NCBI GenBank assembly: GCA_017993835.1
Contig: JAGOLX010000052.1
Location: forward strand, 1 to 44,859
Length of the DNA stretch: 44,859 bases
Direction: 5' to 3'
DNA from: Phycisphaerae bacterium
GTDB taxonomy: Bacteria > Planctomycetota > Phycisphaerae > Sedimentisphaerales > Anaerobacaceae
Shown piece after piece: positions 12,337 through 20,125 of this stretch. Position 1 is the first letter of the stretch, and every line of letters begins with the position of its first letter. Below the pieces are notes generated by a model that searched no databases, was not told where the DNA came from, and was given only the letters and a program-made list of their open reading frames with translations. A program made the position numbers and the translations under genes.

Positions 12337-12354
12337 TTGTGAATGTGAACACAA
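12337..12354 (+). promoter_or_regulatory. Rex-type operator, probable autoregulatory site
   Basis: The 18 bases TTGTGAATGTGAACACAA have perfect inverted 5-base arms (TTGTG / CACAA) with the 8-base spacing of the known Rex operator TTGTGAAWWWWTTCACAA; mismatches are confined to the centre. It lies at about +9 to +27 of the predicted transcript, so bound Rex would block transcription of its own gene and the hydrogenase genes. The inner sequence TGTGA-N6-ACACA is also one base from a CRP-type site, an alternative made less likely by the adjacent rex gene. Confidence 0.7.
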
Positions 12355-12378
12355 GCACGAAGGTTGGTGTTGCCCGGT

Positions 12379-13053
12379 ATGAGGTACCCCAAGATTCCCG
12401 ACGAGACGGTGCGGCGGTTGCCGATCTATCTGCGAGGCCTGAAGGTCTCGGCGGATCAGGGGCATGAGCACATTTCCAGCCAGGCCTTGGCGGATTTCGT
12501 CGGGGTCCAGTCGTGGCAAATCCGCAAGGATTTCTCCCACTTCGGCGATTTCGGGACACGAGGGGTCGGGTATCATATCGAGGGACTGGCCCGCCAGATC
12601 AAGAAGATTCTCCGTCTGGATGTGGTTCACAGGGCGGCCGTGGTGGGCATTGGAGACCTGGGCAAGGCGCTGCTGGCGTATCCGGGATTCGAAGGGTACG
12701 GCCTGGACGTCGTGGCGGCCTTCGACATCGATCCGCACAAGATCGGCAGGCTGGTCAACGGCATTCGGATCGAAGGGCTCTCCGATCTCGGCACGTTGGG
12801 CGAGCGGGGAATCACGCTGGGAATCGTCGCGGTTCCCCGGGCGGCGGCCCAGTCCGTGGTGGACCAGCTTGTCGGGGCCGGCGTCCGGGGGATTCTGAAT
12901 TTCGCCCCGTGCAGCGTCGTCCTGCCCCGCCGGGTGAAGGTCATCACCCTGGATATCGCAATGGAACTCGCCCGTCTGCCGTACTACATGCGGACGGCCG
13001 GTTCGAGTGAACACCCTGCGACAAAGGGTGGTTCGTCGCAGGGGACGTCGTGA
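12379..13053 (+). CDS. rex: Redox-sensing transcriptional repressor Rex
   Basis: A 224-residue Rex protein. The N-terminal winged helix has IPDETVRRLPIYLRGL, ISSQALADFVGVQSWQIRKDFSHFG and the wing DFGTRGVGYHIEGL. The C-terminal Rossmann domain has the dinucleotide motif AAVVGIGDLGKALLAYPGF and ends with ILNFAPCSVVLP. Rex homodimers bind operators when NADH/NAD+ is low and release them when NADH rises, derepressing fermentative and hydrogen genes. ATG 12379 gives the family-like N-terminus; TTG 12370, with GAAGG six bases upstream, is a possible alternative. It is first in the hydrogenase gene cluster, 46 bases before hydB, and preceded by its own operator. Confidence 0.95.
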   Translation: MRYPKIPDETVRRLPIYLRGLKVSADQGHEHISSQALADFVGVQSWQIRKDFSHFGDFGTRGVGYHIEGLARQIKKILRLDVVHRAAVVGIGDLGKALLAYPGFEGYGLDVVAAFDIDPHKIGRLVNGIRIEGLSDLGTLGERGITLGIVAVPRAAAQSVVDQLVGAGVRGILNFAPCSVVLPRRVKVITLDIAMELARLPYYMRTAGSSEHPATKGGSSQGTS

Positions 13054-13099
13054 TGAAACAGAAGGATTGTGGTCGAGATTTTTGGAGCCGGATTGTCCC

Positions 13100-14137
13100 A
13101 TGAGTGTGAAGAGAATAACGAAGAGTGATTTCGCGAGCTTCGTCGATTCCCTGATCAGGACGGAGAACGTCATCGGGGTCCAGGCGAAGGGAGATCGGTT
13201 CGATTTCGCCCCCCTGGAATCAGCAAAGCACCTTCGGCTGGACTATGACGTGACGCTCCAGCCGCCCAAGAAGTTCTTCCTGCCGCCGACGGAAGTGCTC
13301 CTGACCTATGAGGTCGGCGGGGCGTACAAGTCCCAAACGGATGGGCAGAAGTTCGTCCTGCTGGGCGTGCATCCGTACGACATGATTGCCATCAACCAGA
13401 TGGACGAGCTATTCCAGCAGGACAACTACGACACCCACTACATGGCGCGGCGGAACAACGCGACGATCATCGCCTGCGACGTGGCCAAGGCTTCCGACCA
13501 CGTGTTTGCCTCGTGCATGAACACGGCGGTCGTCAAGGATGGCTACGACATCCTCCTGACGGACATTGGCGACAGCTACGTGATGGAAGCCGCCACGGCC
13601 AAGGGCAACGATCTGCTGGCCAAGGCCAAAGGCGTCGTCGAGGCCGATCCGCAGGCTTTGAGCATGCGAGAGAAAGTCTGGGCGTACAACAAGAGATCGT
13701 TGAACAAGCACCAGCTCAAGTGCGATCCCGCCTATCTGCCCCGCCTGCTGGCCAAGGCCTACAAGCACCCGGTCTGGGAAGAGCGGGCCAAGACGTGCTT
13801 CGCCTGCGGGTCCTGCAACCAAGTGTGTCCGACCTGTTACTGCTTCAACGTGCAGGACGATGTGAACTGGGACCTCAAGACGGGCCAGCGGGCTCGTGCC
13901 TGGGATGGCTGCCTGCTCGATGGATTCACCAAGGTCGCGCCGGACCATGAGTTCCGCAAGGCCCAGGCGGACCGCTTTCGTCACCGGCTCTATCGCAAGG
14001 CGATGTACGTGCCCCAGAAGATTCGCGGCCAGATCGCTTGCGTCGGCTGCGGCCGATGCGTCGGCGCGTGCCTGCCCGACATCGCCAACCCCGTGAGCGT
14101 GTATAACCGTCTGATCGACGATCTGGGAATAGGCTGA
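13100..14137 (+). CDS. hydB: Group 3b [NiFe] hydrogenase (sulfhydrogenase) beta subunit, Fe-S electron transfer
   Basis: The 345-residue protein matches the beta subunit of bidirectional NAD(P)-linked [NiFe] hydrogenase/sulfhydrogenase, also related to anaerobic sulfite reductase subunit A. The first half includes FVLLGVHPYDMIAI and the conserved MARRNN segment. Two ferredoxin-like clusters follow: CFACGSCNQVCPTCYC (Cys 233, 236, 239, 243 and nearby 246, 248) and CVGCGRCVGAC (Cys 314, 317, 320, 324). It should carry electrons between the small subunit and the flavin subunit in the cytoplasm. ATG 13100 is chosen; frames extending upstream enter rex. GGAG at 13084-13087 is the nearest ribosome binding site candidate. 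Confidence 0.92.
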   Translation: MSVKRITKSDFASFVDSLIRTENVIGVQAKGDRFDFAPLESAKHLRLDYDVTLQPPKKFFLPPTEVLLTYEVGGAYKSQTDGQKFVLLGVHPYDMIAINQMDELFQQDNYDTHYMARRNNATIIACDVAKASDHVFASCMNTAVVKDGYDILLTDIGDSYVMEAATAKGNDLLAKAKGVVEADPQALSMREKVWAYNKRSLNKHQLKCDPAYLPRLLAKAYKHPVWEERAKTCFACGSCNQVCPTCYCFNVQDDVNWDLKTGQRARAWDGCLLDGFTKVAPDHEFRKAQADRFRHRLYRKAMYVPQKIRGQIACVGCGRCVGACLPDIANPVSVYNRLIDDLGIG

Positions 14138-14140
14138 GAG

Positions 14141-14220
14141 AATTTATGATTTACGATTTACGATTTGCGATTCGGATCGGGCGCGAGCCCAAATCAGAAA
14201 TAGTAAATCGTGAATTATCG
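14141..14220. repeat. AT-rich intergenic inverted repeat (TTTACGATTT family), copy 1
   Basis: The gap between hydB and hydG has a left arm with iterated ATTTACGATTT units (about 14147-14172) and a right arm AAATCAGAAATAGTAAATCG (14191-14210) of nearly complementary sequence, around a GC-rich centre. The RNA could fold into a long imperfect hairpin. A second copy lies between the response regulator and kinase genes. It ends just before the AAGGAG ribosome binding site of hydG. Confidence 0.8.
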
Positions 14221-14239
14221 ATTGCTAAGGAGTGGACTG

Positions 14240-15079
14240 ATGTGTCAGTGCTGTGTTGAGAAGAAGGACATCTATCTGCCGCAGTTGGCGACCGTTGCGG
14301 ACATCAGCCAGATGAACGCCACGGAGAAATACCTGCGGCTGACGATGGATGGCGGCCAGTTCGACTTTCTCCCCGGCCAGTTCGTGGAGGTCTCCATCGC
14401 CGGCATCGGCGAGGCCCCCATCACAATCAGCTCGTCCCCGACTCAGAAGAACGGGATTGAACTGGTCGTGCGGAAGATCGGGAACGTCAGCGGCGCCATC
14501 CACAATCTCCAGAAGGGCTCCAAGCTGGGCATTCGCGGTCCGCTCGGCAAGGGGATCTATCCCGTCGAGGAGGCCAAGGGCAAGAACGTGGTCTTCGTCT
14601 GTGGCGGTCTGGGCCTGGTCCCGCAGCGATCGTTCATTAACTACGTGTTCGACAACCGCAGCGACTACGGCGACGTCGCGATCCTCCAGGGCACCAAGAA
14701 CCAGGACATGCGTTTGTTTACTTCGGAGATCGACGCCTGGAGCAAACGCGGCGACGTGCAGGTGCTCGAGACGCTGGATGAAGGGAATCCCGCCTGGAAG
14801 GGCCACGTGGGTGTTGTGACCAAGTTGATCCGCAAGGTTGAAATGGACCTGAAATCGGCGAAGATCCTGGTGTGCGGCCCGCCGGTCATGTACAAGTTCG
14901 TGCTGATGGCCCTGGAAGAGTACGACGTGCCGCACAACAACATCTTCGTGAACCTCGAACGAAAAATGAAGTGCGGCGTGGGCAAGTGCGGGCATTGCCA
15001 GATCAACAACGTATATGTCTGCATGGACGGCCCGGTGTTCCGTTATTCTGATTTGGCTTCTCTGCCGGAGGCGATTTAA
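14240..15079 (+). CDS. hydG: Group 3b [NiFe] hydrogenase (sulfhydrogenase) gamma subunit, FAD/NAD(P)-binding
   Basis: This 279-residue ferredoxin reductase-like protein has a flavin-binding barrel (FLPGQFVEVSIAGIGEAPIT, then VRKIGNVSGAIHNLQKGSKL and GIRGPLGKG), a dinucleotide domain (VVFVCGGLGLVP, ILVCGPPVMYKFV) and a C-terminal [2Fe-2S] site (MKCGVGKCGHCQINNVYVC). It exchanges electrons with NAD(P)H. The order beta-gamma-delta-alpha copies the Pyrococcus hydBGDA operon. ATG 14240 has AAGGAG at 14227-14232 with good spacing; frames starting earlier would translate the intergenic repeat. The gene is followed after 2 bases by hydD. Confidence 0.93.
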   Translation: MCQCCVEKKDIYLPQLATVADISQMNATEKYLRLTMDGGQFDFLPGQFVEVSIAGIGEAPITISSSPTQKNGIELVVRKIGNVSGAIHNLQKGSKLGIRGPLGKGIYPVEEAKGKNVVFVCGGLGLVPQRSFINYVFDNRSDYGDVAILQGTKNQDMRLFTSEIDAWSKRGDVQVLETLDEGNPAWKGHVGVVTKLIRKVEMDLKSAKILVCGPPVMYKFVLMALEEYDVPHNNIFVNLERKMKCGVGKCGHCQINNVYVCMDGPVFRYSDLASLPEAI

Positions 15080-15081
15080 CA

Positions 15082-15837
15082 ATGGCAAAACCCAAGATTG
15101 CGATATTCGACTTCGCCTGTTGCGAAGGGTGCCAACTCCAGATCGTCAACCTTGAGGAGGAGATCCTCAATCTCCTCGGGGGCGCCGACGTCGTGGAGTG
15201 GCGCGAGGCGATGAGCGAAAAGAGCGACGAATACGACATCGCCGTCATCGAAGGGTCGATCACCCGCCTGGAGGACGAGGAGAGGCTCAAGCTGATCCGC
15301 AGCCGGGCCAAGGTTCTGATCGCCCTCGGCGCCTGTGCGACCATGGGCGGCGTCAACAAGCTCAAGAACAACTTCGACGACCTCGACGAGGTGAAGAAGT
15401 GCGTCTACGGCAAGGCCGCGAGCAAGCCGCACCTGCACACCGGCCTGACCAAGGCGGTCGACGAGGTCGTCCAGGTCGATTTCTACGTTCACGGCTGTCC
15501 CATCGACAGGAAGGAATTCACCTACATTGTGCGGTCTCTCCTGCTGGGCAAGAAACCCGAGATTGCGGACTACCCCGTGTGCGTCGAGTGCAAGGCCAAG
15601 GGCAATCCGTGCCTGTGGCAGTATGACCAGGTGTGCCTGGGACCGATCATCCGGGCCGGCTGCGGGGCGCGGTGCCCGTCGAACGGGTTCCGCTGCTTCG
15701 GCTGTCGGGGCTACACCAGCAATCCGAATGTGGATGCGGCCAAGGATGTGGTCAACCGATTTGGCCTGAACGTGGACGATCTCAAGACCAAGATGGTTCT
15801 CTTTGGAAGCAAGCAGGAGCCGACGATCTATGAGTAA
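15082..15837 (+). CDS. hydD: Group 3b [NiFe] hydrogenase small (delta) subunit
   Basis: The 251-residue protein is the [NiFe] hydrogenase small subunit. The proximal [4Fe-4S] cluster is signalled by FACCEGCQ near the N-terminus (Cys 14 and 17), LIALGACATMGG, and VHGCPID. Additional cysteines in CVECKAKGNPC and AGCGARCPSNGFRCFGC can bind further clusters. No Tat leader is present, so the complex is cytoplasmic as expected for group 3. Its last 8 bases overlap the start of the large-subunit gene, which suggests coupled synthesis. Confidence 0.95.
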   Translation: MAKPKIAIFDFACCEGCQLQIVNLEEEILNLLGGADVVEWREAMSEKSDEYDIAVIEGSITRLEDEERLKLIRSRAKVLIALGACATMGGVNKLKNNFDDLDEVKKCVYGKAASKPHLHTGLTKAVDEVVQVDFYVHGCPIDRKEFTYIVRSLLLGKKPEIADYPVCVECKAKGNPCLWQYDQVCLGPIIRAGCGARCPSNGFRCFGCRGYTSNPNVDAAKDVVNRFGLNVDDLKTKMVLFGSKQEPTIYE

Positions 15838-17140
15838 AGGCACAGTCAACATAAACGTACATCACGTGACCCGTATCGAGGGGCACGGCAACATCGTTCT
15901 GAACGCCAAGAACGGCAAGATCGAGAAGCTGCAGTGGCAGGTGCCCGAAGCCCCGCGATTCTTCGAGGCCATGGTTCGCGGGCGGAGCTACGAGGACATC
16001 CAGACCATCGTGAGCCGGATCTGCGGCATTTGCTCGATCACGCACTCGCTGGCTTCGACCAAGGCGGTCGAGAATGCCATCGGAGTGAAGGTCTCCGAGC
16101 AGGCGGACAAGGTCCGCATCCTGATGCACTATTCCGAGCAATTGCAGAGCCACGTGCTGCACGTCGGCTACCTCGCGGCGCCGGATTTCTTCGGTGTGCC
16201 CTCGGTCGTCCCGCTGGTGGGGATCGCCCCGGATGCGGTCAAGACGATCATCGGACTGCACCGGCTGGCGAACGAATGGTCCGACCTGATCGCCGGTCGG
16301 ACGACGCACCCGGTGACGCTCAAGCCGGGCGGCCTGACGAAGTTTCCCACGGAGAAGGAGCTCCGGGACCTGCAGGAGCGACTCAGGAAGGCCCTCCCCG
16401 ACCTGAAGGTCGTCGCCGAGGTTGTGCTCTCCGTGGCCGCGAATATCCCGAATTTCCAGCGTCCGACGGAATACGTCTCGCTCAAGCAGGACAATCCGCC
16501 GATCTATACGTTCTATCACGGCGAGATCACGTCGACGGACTATGACGGTGCCGTCGCGATCAACGACTGGAAGACGGTCGCCAACGAGTACGTCTGCGAT
16601 CAATCCACCGCCAAGTGGACGAAATGGCATCGCAAGTCCTATGCGGTCGGTGCGCTGGCGCGGTTCAACAACAATGCCGATCTGCTTTCCCCGACGGCCA
16701 AGGCAGTGGCCAAGATGTTCAACCTCCAAAAGGGCTGCTGCAATCCCTACATGAACACGGTCGCCCAGATCGTGGAATGTGTTCACGTGGTCGAGGTCAG
16801 CATCCAGATGATCGACGAACTGCTGACCAAGGGGATCAAGCCCGAGACGGTCAGGACCTCGCCGAAGGCCGGCAAGGCCAGCGGCTGTGTCGAGGCCCCT
16901 CGTGGCATCCTGTTCCATGAGTACGAGTTCGACCGCAAGGGCAACTGTGTCGGCGCCGACATCTGCATTCCGACGAACCAGAACCACGCCAGCATGCAGG
17001 AGGATTTCGAGGCCCTCGTGCCGCAGATTATCGACGAGCCCGAGGACCAGATTCGCCTGAAGCTCGAGATGCTCGTGCGGTCTTACGATCCGTGTGTCTC
17101 GTGTTCGACGCACATGCTGGATGTGCAGTTCGTCCGATGA
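15830..17140 (+). CDS. hydA: Group 3b [NiFe] hydrogenase large (alpha) catalytic subunit
   Basis: The 436-residue catalytic subunit carries both nickel-binding motifs: RICGIC at Cys 65 and 68 (L1) and DPCVSCSTH at Cys 422 and 425 near the C-terminus (L2). An 8-residue tail after the L2 histidine (MLDVQFVR) should be removed by the maturation protease encoded next. N-terminal HHVTRIEGHGNI is also conserved. The enzyme interconverts H2 with protons, linked through hydB and hydG to NAD(P)H; group 3b enzymes can also reduce sulfur. ATG 15830 overlaps the end of hydD. No hypABCDEF assembly genes are in the window, so these must lie elsewhere. Confidence 0.95.
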   Translation: MSKGTVNINVHHVTRIEGHGNIVLNAKNGKIEKLQWQVPEAPRFFEAMVRGRSYEDIQTIVSRICGICSITHSLASTKAVENAIGVKVSEQADKVRILMHYSEQLQSHVLHVGYLAAPDFFGVPSVVPLVGIAPDAVKTIIGLHRLANEWSDLIAGRTTHPVTLKPGGLTKFPTEKELRDLQERLRKALPDLKVVAEVVLSVAANIPNFQRPTEYVSLKQDNPPIYTFYHGEITSTDYDGAVAINDWKTVANEYVCDQSTAKWTKWHRKSYAVGALARFNNNADLLSPTAKAVAKMFNLQKGCCNPYMNTVAQIVECVHVVEVSIQMIDELLTKGIKPETVRTSPKAGKASGCVEAPRGILFHEYEFDRKGNCVGADICIPTNQNHASMQEDFEALVPQIIDEPEDQIRLKLEMLVRSYDPCVSCSTHMLDVQFVR

Positions 17141-17222
17141 TTGATTGTGGATAATGGATGATTGATGATTGAAGAATGGCTTCCACCAACAATTCATCAT
17201 CCATCAGGAACAGCCAATCCAC
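17139..17222. repeat. Intergenic inverted repeat (GGATGATTGATGATTG type) overlapping the protease start
   Basis: The left arm includes GATTGTGGATAATGGATGAT and the right arm ATTCATCATCCATCAGG, which are partly complementary. The element occupies the hydA-protease gap and continues over the first ~15 codons of the annotated protease frame. Such short AT-rich repeats differ sharply from the coding composition around them. Confidence 0.6.
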
Positions 17223-17685
17223 GAAGCGGTCTACCGTGGTGCTTGGTCTGGGCAATCCGCTGATGGCGGACGAAGGAATCGGGGTGTGCCTCGTCGAACG
17301 GCTCGCGGAGTCGTCGTCGGACTACCCGGACGTGGATTTCCTCGACGCCGGGACGGGTGGGTTGGCGGTGCTGCACCACATGGCGGGCCGTCGCAAGGCG
17401 ATCTTCGTCGATTGTGCGTACATGGAACAGGAGCCTGGAGCGATCCGGCGGTTTGCGCCTGACGAGGTCCGCAGTACGAAGGTGCTGGCTCACCAGTCGC
17501 TCCACGAGGCAGACCTTCTGCGGATCATCGGCATGGCCCGGGAACTCGGCCAGGCCCCTGAGGAAATCGTGATTTTCGGCATCCAGCCGGAGCGGATCGA
17601 GTTCCGACAAGGCCTGAGCGCGACGCTGGCAAACGGCATCGACCGGTGCCTGGATGCGATTCGGGCTGAGCTGGATGCGCAGTGA
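17176..17685 (+). CDS. [NiFe] hydrogenase maturation protease (HyaD/HycI family)
   Basis: The protein (up to 169 residues) has the family motifs VLGLGNPLMADEGIGV (with the nickel-sensing acidic residue), FLDAGTGGLAVL and HQSLHEADLL, which hold the three metal ligands. It clips the C-terminal tail of the hydrogenase large subunit after nickel insertion. Its place directly after hydA fits. The first ~19 residues (Ser/Asn-rich) come from the intergenic repeat, and the ATG at 17176 lacks a good ribosome binding site. The native start could be a GTG around 17236-17239, just before the conserved LGLGNP. Confidence 0.9.
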   Translation: MASTNNSSSIRNSQSTKRSTVVLGLGNPLMADEGIGVCLVERLAESSSDYPDVDFLDAGTGGLAVLHHMAGRRKAIFVDCAYMEQEPGAIRRFAPDEVRSTKVLAHQSLHEADLLRIIGMARELGQAPEEIVIFGIQPERIEFRQGLSATLANGIDRCLDAIRAELDAQ

Positions 17686-17718
17686 AGGACAACAGTGGGG
17701 GATTCCCAAGGAGACCCA

Positions 17719-18120
17719 ATGGGACAGAGCAAGATTCTGATCGTTGACGACGATCCTGATATCACCGATGCGATGACTGTCGTGCTGGAGAACAAGGGCT
17801 ATGAGGTCTGCTGCGCCAGGGACAGCGACGAGGGCATGAAGCGGCTGAAGGCGTCCCGACCGGATCTGATCATTCTCGACGTGATGATGAGGACCTCGCA
17901 GGAAGGGTTCGAGTTCGCCCGCGAGATCAAGCAGGATGCGCAGCTCAAGGACATCCCCATTCTCATGCTGACCGCAGTCAAGCAGAAGAAGGGCCTGGAT
18001 TTCAAGCCTGCGGCCGGCGACGAGACCTGGCTGCCCGTCCAGGCATTCCTGGACAAGCCGGTCAAGCCCGACATGCTGATCGAGAAGGTCCAGGACCTGC
18101 TGTCGGCTCGCGATGCGTGA
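17719..18120 (+). CDS. Stand-alone receiver-domain response regulator
   Basis: A 133-residue CheY-like protein with the full phosphorylation site: ILIVDDDPD at the N-terminus, phospho-acceptor Asp54 in LIILDVMM, Thr85 in LMLTA and Lys113 in FLDKPV. There is no DNA-binding or enzymatic output domain. The loop between Thr85 and Lys113 is longer than in CheY and rich in charged residues. AAGGAG at 17708-17713 supports ATG 17719. It is 34 bases after the protease gene and about 130 bases before a histidine kinase gene, probably its partner. Output must be through protein contact, perhaps with a separate regulator or enzyme. Confidence 0.9.
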   Translation: MGQSKILIVDDDPDITDAMTVVLENKGYEVCCARDSDEGMKRLKASRPDLIILDVMMRTSQEGFEFAREIKQDAQLKDIPILMLTAVKQKKGLDFKPAAGDETWLPVQAFLDKPVKPDMLIEKVQDLLSARDA

Positions 18121-18126
18121 GCCGGA

Positions 18127-18243
18127 GGATTTACGATTTGCAATTGACGATTTACGATTTGCCGGCGGCATTCTGTCGCGCCTCTTGTGTTGGCGTATGA
18201 CGTGCAAAGCCAAATCGTAAATAGTAAATCGTAAATGGTAAAT
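18127..18243. repeat. AT-rich intergenic inverted repeat (TTTACGATTT family), copy 2
   Basis: The left arm has GATTTACGATTTGCAATTGA and continues with another TTTACGATTT; the right arm (18211-18243) has CAAATCGTAAATAGTAAATC and a further GTAAATGGTAAAT. The arms are nearly complementary and flank a ~50-base GC-richer centre. It fills the response regulator-kinase gap and ends 6 bases before the kinase ATG, so folding could affect kinase translation. Confidence 0.8.
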
Positions 18244-18248
18244 GAACT

Positions 18249-19595
18249 ATGGAAAGCCTTCTCAAGAGCACCAGCCTGGTCCAGAGGGCCCGGTGGCTCA
18301 TTGGCTTGCGATGGGTGGCGATCGCGGCACTGGGCTGCGCCACGTTCGGCGCCGACGAGTTCATGGGGGTCTCTCTGGCAGCCTCGGCCTTGTATGCGAT
18401 GGTCGCCGTGCTGCTCGTGTACAATCTCGGCCTTCACACGCTGCTGCGATACTGGACGCATGAGGCGAGGGAACCCTCGGAGGCCCGGATCGGCGGCATC
18501 ATCACGTTCCAGATCTCGGCCGATTTGCTTATTCTCGCGACGATCCTGCACTTCTCGGGCGGGATCGAGAATCCGTTCCTGTTCTTCTTCGCGTTTCACA
18601 TGATCATCGCGAGCATACTGCGGTCCCGGCGGCAGAGCTATTTGCAGGCGACGCTGGCGGTGGGCCTGTTCGGCGGGCTGGTCGTGCTGGAGGCCGCGGG
18701 CTGGCTGAAGCACCACAGCCTGGAGGGGTTCGCCGGCCACGGATTGTTTCGCGACTGGACCTACGTCTTCGGCACGCTCTTCGTGTTCACCGTCACGCTG
18801 TATCTGATCGTGTACATGACGACTTCGATCAGCGAGCAGCTTCGGCGCCAGCAGGAGGGTCTCGAACGGGCCAACGCCCAGCTCCAGGAAAAGGACCAGG
18901 TCAAGAACCAGTACGTCCTGCGGGTGACGCACGACATCAAGGGACATCTGGCGGCCGTGCTGAGCTGCCTGGATTTGGTCGTCGACCAGATGCTCGGTCC
19001 CCTTAACGACAAGCAGAAGGATTTCATCGGGCGGGCGCACCATCGGACGACGAAATGCCTGGAATTCATCACGGCCCTGCTGAAGCTGACCCGGATGAAG
19101 CTGACCGGGATGCTGGAGGTCGAGCAGTTCTCGCTGAAGAAGTCCATTCTCAACGCCCTGGCCCTTGTCCACAACAGGGCGCAGGGCAAGTCGATCTCGC
19201 TGAGCCACCGGATCGACCCGCAGGTCGATCGGATTTGGGGCGAGGCCGTCCTCATCGAAGAGACGATCGCCAACGTCCTGTTCAATGCGGTCAAGTACAC
19301 CCCGCCCGGCGGCAAGGTGTCGCTGGAGGCCGAGGCGGAGGGAGACCGCGTGCGAATCCGGGTCGCAGACACGGGGATCGGCGTTCCCGAGGCGGATGCC
19401 TCGCGAATCTTCGATGAGTTCTACCGGGCGGACAACGCCCGGGAAACGGAGCGGGATGGGACGGGCCTGGGCCTGGCGTTTGCCAGGCAGGTCATCGAAC
19501 GCCATGGCGGGCGGATCTGGTTGGAGAACAATCCCGGCGGCGGCAGCATCTTCACCTTCACGCTGCCGACCGGCCCCATCGCCGGTGGAGCCTGA
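18249..19595 (+). CDS. Membrane sensor histidine kinase with RegB-like GGxxNPF quinone motif
   Basis: The 448-residue kinase has about six N-terminal membrane helices (residues 14-190), a short coiled-coil linker (195-220), a HisKA domain with His228 in VTHDIKGHL, and a HATPase domain with N box NVLFNAVKYTPPGG, G1 box VADTGIGVP, F box IFDEFYR and G2 box DGTGLGLAFA. SGGIENPF at 103-110, between two membrane helices, matches the GGxxNPF quinone-binding motif of RegB/PrrB redox sensors, which control hydrogenase and other energy genes in Rhodobacter. I see no equivalent of the RegB redox cysteine next to the H box. ATG 18249 lacks a clear ribosome binding site. Redox sensing via quinone is inferred from this motif and from the hydrogenase context. 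Confidence 0.9.
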   Translation: MESLLKSTSLVQRARWLIGLRWVAIAALGCATFGADEFMGVSLAASALYAMVAVLLVYNLGLHTLLRYWTHEAREPSEARIGGIITFQISADLLILATILHFSGGIENPFLFFFAFHMIIASILRSRRQSYLQATLAVGLFGGLVVLEAAGWLKHHSLEGFAGHGLFRDWTYVFGTLFVFTVTLYLIVYMTTSISEQLRRQQEGLERANAQLQEKDQVKNQYVLRVTHDIKGHLAAVLSCLDLVVDQMLGPLNDKQKDFIGRAHHRTTKCLEFITALLKLTRMKLTGMLEVEQFSLKKSILNALALVHNRAQGKSISLSHRIDPQVDRIWGEAVLIEETIANVLFNAVKYTPPGGKVSLEAEAEGDRVRIRVADTGIGVPEADASRIFDEFYRADNARETERDGTGLGLAFARQVIERHGGRIWLENNPGGGSIFTFTLPTGPIAGGA

Positions 19596-19600
19596 AAGAC

Positions 19601-20125
19601 ATGACGCCCGCGTCTCTGTTGCTGAAGGTCTACTATGAGCAGTTGCACGACCGGATGGAGACGCATCGGTCCCGCCTTCTCCGCCGGATTGACGAGCTGC
19701 TGGCGGAAGAGATCGAGAAGCGGGGTTTCACCGGTGTGGAGGGCGAGCGGCTCTCCGCCTATCGCGAGACCTGCGAGGCCTTCATCGACGAGCGTCTGGA
19801 GACCTACAATCCCATCGGTATTCAGTACACCTTCGGGAATACCCCGTCGCGCACGGCGGCGGACCTGGAGTTTCAGCTCAACTGGTACGACAGCAGGCCC
19901 GAGTTCGCCGATCTCGTCGCGGCGGCTCGCGCCCTGGCGGAAGAGGATGCGTCCGACGCCAGGCTCAATGATCTGGCGGCCGATCTGATCCGTCGGGTCG
20001 GCGCATTTCCCGATCGCAGCATCGTCGGCGCCTACCGGGCTCAGCCCAGCCTGCAGAAGCTGCCCGATTACATCGTTGCGCTGGCAATCGAGGAGATCGC
20101 CTGTGAACGCAAGCCCACCTTCTGA
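19601..20125 (+). CDS. Protein of unknown function closing the hydrogenase/two-component cluster
   Basis: I do not recognise this 174-residue protein. It starts 5 bases after the kinase stop, so it is almost surely co-transcribed. It looks cytoplasmic and mostly helical: no signal peptide or membrane segment, charged amphipathic stretches in HDRMETHRSRLLRRIDELLA and RAAADLEF-like regions, and a central aromatic part (ETYNPIGIQYTFGN). No metal-binding cysteine cluster or helix-turn-helix is seen; the only cysteines are two, one mid-protein and one near the end. Possible roles are partner of the kinase or receiver, or hydrogenase accessory factor; neither is supported beyond location. Confidence 0.7.
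   Translation: MTPASLLLKVYYEQLHDRMETHRSRLLRRIDELLAEEIEKRGFTGVEGERLSAYRETCEAFIDERLETYNPIGIQYTFGNTPSRTAADLEFQLNWYDSRPEFADLVAAARALAEEDASDARLNDLAADLIRRVGAFPDRSIVGAYRAQPSLQKLPDYIVALAIEEIACERKPTF

Follow-up and report, generated by a model that had tools for sequence, protein, structure and literature searches.

The analysed stretch of DNA (the window, 44,859 nt) carries a [NiFe] hydrogenase operon with a receiver gene and a membrane kinase gene at its 3' end. The order is a PNPOx-like gene, a Rex-like operator, rex, hydB, hydG, the small and large [NiFe] subunits, a protease, the receiver, the kinase, and a 174-aa open reading frame (ORF). The features discussed here are:

12337–12354, + strand: Rex-operator-like site TTGTGAATGTGAACACAA before rex, identical before rex at three related loci
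12364–13053, + strand: Rex, an NADH/NAD+-sensing repressor
13007–14137, + strand: iron-sulfur beta subunit, start probably at 13100
14210–15079, + strand: FAD/NAD(P)-binding gamma subunit
15082–15837, + strand: [NiFe] hydrogenase small (delta) subunit
15803–17140, + strand: large (alpha) subunit of a sulfhydrogenase-type, group 3b-like [NiFe] hydrogenase; it carries RICGIC and DPCVSC and probably starts at the ATG at 15830
17176–17685, + strand: hydrogenase maturation protease
17695–18120, + strand: stand-alone receiver (single-domain response regulator), 141 aa, without an output domain; its pairing with the kinase is conserved
18121–18248, + strand: receiver-kinase intergenic hairpin of TTTACGATT-type repeats, predicted at -41 kcal/mol
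18249–19595, + strand: sensor histidine kinase, 448 aa (ORF, domain search and predicted structure)
18555–18578, + strand: SGGIENPF, kinase residues 103–110, predicted turn between TM3 (78–102) and TM4 (109–124)
18930–18932, + strand: His228 (THDIKG), predicted phospho-accepting histidine (alignment)
19056–19058, + strand: Cys270, in the second helix of the DHp domain; MAFFT and hhalign place it on the redox cysteine of RegB
19601–20125, + strand: conserved 174-aa ORF 3' of the kinase, without a Pfam family

An earlier, sequence-only reading of this DNA had placed the kinase next to hydrogenase genes. The kinase sits in the hydrogenase operon, and the linkage is conserved in many genomes. The operon holds a second TTTACGATT-type intergenic hairpin (window 14138–14215, predicted at -25 kcal/mol), and decayed hairpins of this type occur in the receiver-kinase gap of four related loci. 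In many hydrogenase-linked loci the 174-aa ORF, too, is conserved downstream of the kinase.

The kinase consists of a six-helix membrane sensor (residues 1 to ~200), a DHp domain (~205–286) and a HATPase_c domain (334–441). His228 is invariant across 79 relatives and aligns with the H-box histidine of ActS/RegB. The model of the sensor domain (window 18249–18896; pLDDT 85, pTM 0.80) has helices at residues 10–37, 45–71, 78–102, 109–124, 127–150, and 170–215, and by these predicted boundaries SGGIENPF forms the turn that joins membrane helices 3 and 4, which agrees with the place between membrane helices first proposed. Assuming the usual N-in topology, this turn should lie on the outer side of the membrane.

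Descriptions of RegB-type sensing come from Proteobacteria. The earlier reading saw a RegB-type motif outside that phylum and suggested a profile comparison with RegB and a structure prediction; both were run, and no non-equivalent topology was found. When the sensor domain alone was compared with NCBIfam, only two models matched, both of them RegB (NF033792 and NF045988 are the RegB models there): the ActS/PrrB/RegB model (5.7e-14, residues 13–213 on profile positions 9–194) and the Rhodobacteraceae RegB model (8.1e-11). Comparing the sensor profile with three real ActS/RegB proteins in hhalign gave E 4.9e-16, and the GG..NPF columns fell on one another. These proteins, fetched with a RegB sequence that served only as bait, came from loci annotated as ActS/RegB in Sinorhizobium, Azospirillum, and Rhizobium, at all three of which ActR/RegA adjoins ActS/RegB. 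Judged by these profiles, the sensor domain is a homologue of the RegB/ActS sensor, with the motif at the equivalent transmembrane position, and such homologues occur in several phyla. Full membership of the RegB family was rejected, because the full-length kinase scores 107.7 bits against NF033792 (equivalog cut-off 350) and its partner is a lone receiver rather than RegA. A limited literature search for RegB-like kinases outside Proteobacteria, and for receiver-kinase pairs on hydrogenase operons, returned nothing on point.

The motif is not a chance match. Among 294 genomes of this phylum, an HMM search with the sensor domain turned up relatives in 89, the host's own included, of which only one other belonged to the same class and none came from the sampled genomes of the same order. 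This search made no use of the motif and thus gives an unbiased set for judging its conservation: all 20 fully read loci have GGxx[NS]P in this position, 14 of them as strict GGxxNPF and the other six as GGxxNPL or GGxxSP[LMV]. A scan of 84,980 species genomes gave 80 loci in Planctomycetota (mostly Phycisphaerae/Sedimentisphaerales), Omnitrophota, Bacteroidota, Elusimicrobiota, Eisenbacteria, and Armatimonadota, but the motif was one of the two search patterns used, so its conservation in that set is partly built in. Within the host's 6.37-Mb genome, GGxxNPF in DNA form has two matches, the second being in a short unrelated frame, and there is no second copy of the kinase's sensor half. GGxxNPF is the mark of a large family spread over several phyla, not something special to the window kinase.

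The neighbours of these relatives bear on what the family does. The Rex-hydBGDA-protease-receiver-kinase order is kept in other Phycisphaerae MAGs. Nine loci have all or most of the window order, and five more have the hydrogenase-protease-receiver-kinase part. The hydBGDA-protease-receiver-kinase order also occurs in two genomes of another planctomycete family (f49), where kinase identity is ~30%. At five loci, rex and the genes of a group-4 [NiFe] hydrogenase come after the kinase, and both metal-binding CxxC motifs are intact in the large subunit of that hydrogenase. In a sister clade (11 loci), either nqrABCDEF lies upstream of the kinase or multihaem cytochromes flank it, and five Omnitrophota kinases lie beside NrfD/molybdopterin or other molybdopterin operons. 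Electron-transfer neighbours were seen at ~50 of the 80 named loci (a raw count). The receiver-kinase pair recurs beside redox enzymes in Planctomycetota and Omnitrophota and stands without them in the other groups; this recurrence supports a role in membrane redox sensing.

Two side observations come from these loci. One MAG (UBA2218) has two receiver-kinase pairs, one on a group-3b hydrogenase operon (L061) and one on a group-4 operon (L064). In one planctomycete Na+-NQR operon, the NqrA-like subunit (L118:3929-5374) bears at its C terminus a 4Fe-4S dicluster domain like that of RnfC.

It could be argued that this is an ordinary sensor kinase whose link to the hydrogenase is accidental, since about one third of relatives have no detected electron-transfer genes nearby (several of those loci are cut by contig ends, others do lack such neighbours). 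However, the gene order with hydrogenase is kept across kinases of 56–78% identity and again in the distant planctomycete family at ~30%, so we consider an accident very improbable. The kinase might instead sense through contact with a membrane redox complex such as Rnf, group-4 hydrogenase or Na+-NQR, with the motif shaping the interface. This idea fits the variety of membrane electron-transfer complexes whose genes neighbour the pair, and Rhodobacter PrrB gives a precedent, being inhibited by purified cbb3 oxidase via its membrane domain (review PMC8399564). But the hydrogenase beside the window kinase is of the soluble group-3b type, the host's Rnf is encoded on another contig, and no single membrane complex is common to all loci, which together make contact sensing unlikely, though less so than an accidental link.

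Our main reading, to which we give a probability of about 0.5, is that the gene product is a membrane redox-sensor kinase of RegB type, dedicated to the Rex-hydrogenase operon, with a ligand-binding GGIENPF turn. At this turn, on the outward side of the membrane, the six-helix sensor would bind a small redox-active or lipid-like molecule, the best guess being a lipid of the quinone/quinol type. Binding would change autokinase activity, and His228 would hand its phosphoryl group to the lone receiver, whose gene lies directly upstream. The kinase most likely works together with Rex: Rex reads NADH/NAD+, and the two together would let the cell match hydrogenase activity or expression to the redox state of two compartments. 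Of this picture, the analysis shows the homology, the place of the motif, the operon linkage with its conservation, the place of the cysteine and the missing DNA-binding output; we infer the ligand, the phosphotransfer, the direction of control and the action of the lone receiver.

Cys270, in the DHp hairpin, may provide a second, cytoplasmic thiol input. The earlier reading considered the redox cysteine of RegB not evident, which was wrong: MAFFT and hhalign both align Cys270 (RTTKCLEFI) with the RegB redox-box cysteine (SERCRDIL). A tree of sensor domains (n=100) puts the window kinase in a supported clade of 27 members, all but three of which adjoin a detected hydrogenase, and 24 of the 27 keep Cys270, the others having A, G or S. 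Nearly all receiver-linked relatives outside the hydrogenase clade have Leu in this column. Kinases with a different, NtrB-like DHp also carry Cys there, so the position is permissive. The suggestion of a quinone-only sensor had rested on the missing cysteine and so is not supported.

Searches of the host genome for quinone-pathway genes and terminal oxidases bear on quinone as the ligand; this genome is 99% complete, and the same searches gave matches in control genomes. In the host they found no PF02621 (MqnA/MqnD), no MenB, no cytochrome bd or haem-copper oxidase, and only weak, below-cut-off family matches for MenD. Its only NQR2/RnfD-type gene is part of an rnf cluster, not Na+-NQR. With these genes missing, the host has the look of an anaerobe in which no known quinone pathway is complete; perhaps it salvages a precursor, uses another pathway or has no quinone at all. 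MenA-like and UbiE/MenG-like proteins do pass cut-offs (contigs C15 and C80), making quinone salvage possible. The quinone ligand proposed from the RegB motif is therefore weakened in this host by the lack of a recognisable de novo pathway and of a terminal oxidase, and by the hydrogenase-linked f49 kinases, which read GGIESPL or GGIESPM at the motif. It fares better in the sister clade, where the Na+-NQR neighbours favour quinone. There is related work on Methylomonas RegB, which carries GGASNPI and still supported growth without its ubiquinone-binding domain; the authors' reading was that kinase activity had been freed from inhibition by oxidised quinone (PMC13274454).

The strongest competitor is the same sensor with a different ligand, which we judge clearly less probable than our main reading but a serious contender. 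The GG..NP turn would then be a structural hallmark of the six-helix fold, with the family-specific residues H101, E107, E148, and H155, which lie on the same face, binding something else, e.g., a metal ion, proton, fatty acid or other lipid, and the protein would be a membrane-state or ion sensor. In a 79-sequence alignment the invariant residues are W16, R21, W22, Q88, D92, G104, G105, N108, P109, F116, H117, E148, and H155. The last three of these lend weight to the idea, together with H101 and E107, which hardly vary. RegB shares R21, W22, D92, and the motif with this family, but has P in place of H117 and L or Y in place of Q88 and lacks E148, so the pocket differs from RegB's. The host's missing de novo pathway fits a different ligand as well, as do the variation of the motif's N and F among kinases linked to the same operon and the superposition of the sensor model on adenylyl cyclase and ImcA six-helix domains (Z 13–14, against 8 or below for the next rows). 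However, Na+-NQR and NrfD/molybdopterin operons, for which quinone is a usual partner, are recurrent neighbours of the family, and of 99 relatives 95 have N108 and 84 have F110.

The family brings a RegB-homologous sensor to anaerobic phyla, where a lone receiver links it to enzymes of H2, NADH, and molybdenum. A bolder and rather doubtful extension is that the pair constitutes a widespread, apparently undescribed cassette, a plug-in redox controller for hydrogenases, Na+-NQR, and molybdenum oxidoreductases in Planctomycetota and Omnitrophota, whose hydrogenase branch has a re-used quinone site and a newly gained DHp cysteine. On that extension, anaerobes without a de novo quinone pathway would have put an ancestral quinone site to use for another membrane redox signal. 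The family offers natural variants for asking what the GGxxNPF site reads, be it quinone, another lipid or a protein. The question becomes testable through the split between the hydrogenase clade (Cys present, and in this host no evident quinone pathway) and the Na+-NQR clade (no Cys, and a quinone-reducing neighbour).

We compared the locus with four kinds of known system. The first is the six-helix membrane domain of adenylyl cyclases and ImcA: in VIA-align, the sensor model scored Z 13.8 with AC5, 13.7 with AC9, 13.6 with ImcA of Pseudomonas PAO1, and 9.3 with Mycobacterium Cya, the next unrelated rows having Z 8 and below, though Z 13–14 can be common for helical bundles. The predicted fold superposes over most of the domain (155–190 residues), but at 6–16% identity with no sequence relation shown, and these proteins have other catalytic domains, not a kinase. 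Foldseek against the PDB gave no significant match for the model, and a sequence search of solved structures with the sensor found no relative. Given the non-significant Foldseek result and Z-scores that can be common among helical bundles, we treat this likeness as a lead only. In PMC9433096 the membrane anchors of the cyclases come up as orphan receptors, and for Mycobacterium Cya a link to metal ions is suggested as a possibility.

The second is the DVU0259-type single-domain response regulator (NF045717), which is the best NCBIfam match of the partner receiver (7.3e-22). The receiver nevertheless scores 77.7 bits against a cut-off of 160 and carries a conserved insert (LTAVK.K.G.DF..GD..WLPV..FLDKPV). 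The third is the Rex-controlled hydrogenase operon, with which the window shares rex and a Rex-like operator at the operon head, but the window operon has an extra membrane kinase and receiver at its 3' end.

The fourth and closest is RegB/PrrB/ActS. Differences include the H-box (AHELGTPL there, THDIKG here), the partner (RegA/ActR with a DNA-binding domain there, a lone receiver here), and a host without a recognisable quinone pathway. What is alike is the homologous six-helix sensor with GGxxNPF in the TM3-TM4 turn, the lack of a periplasmic or PAS domain, and a cysteine aligned with the redox-box cysteine. We therefore regard the window kinase as a putative RegB-type redox-sensor variant, distinct from RegB itself, with quinone as its candidate ligand.
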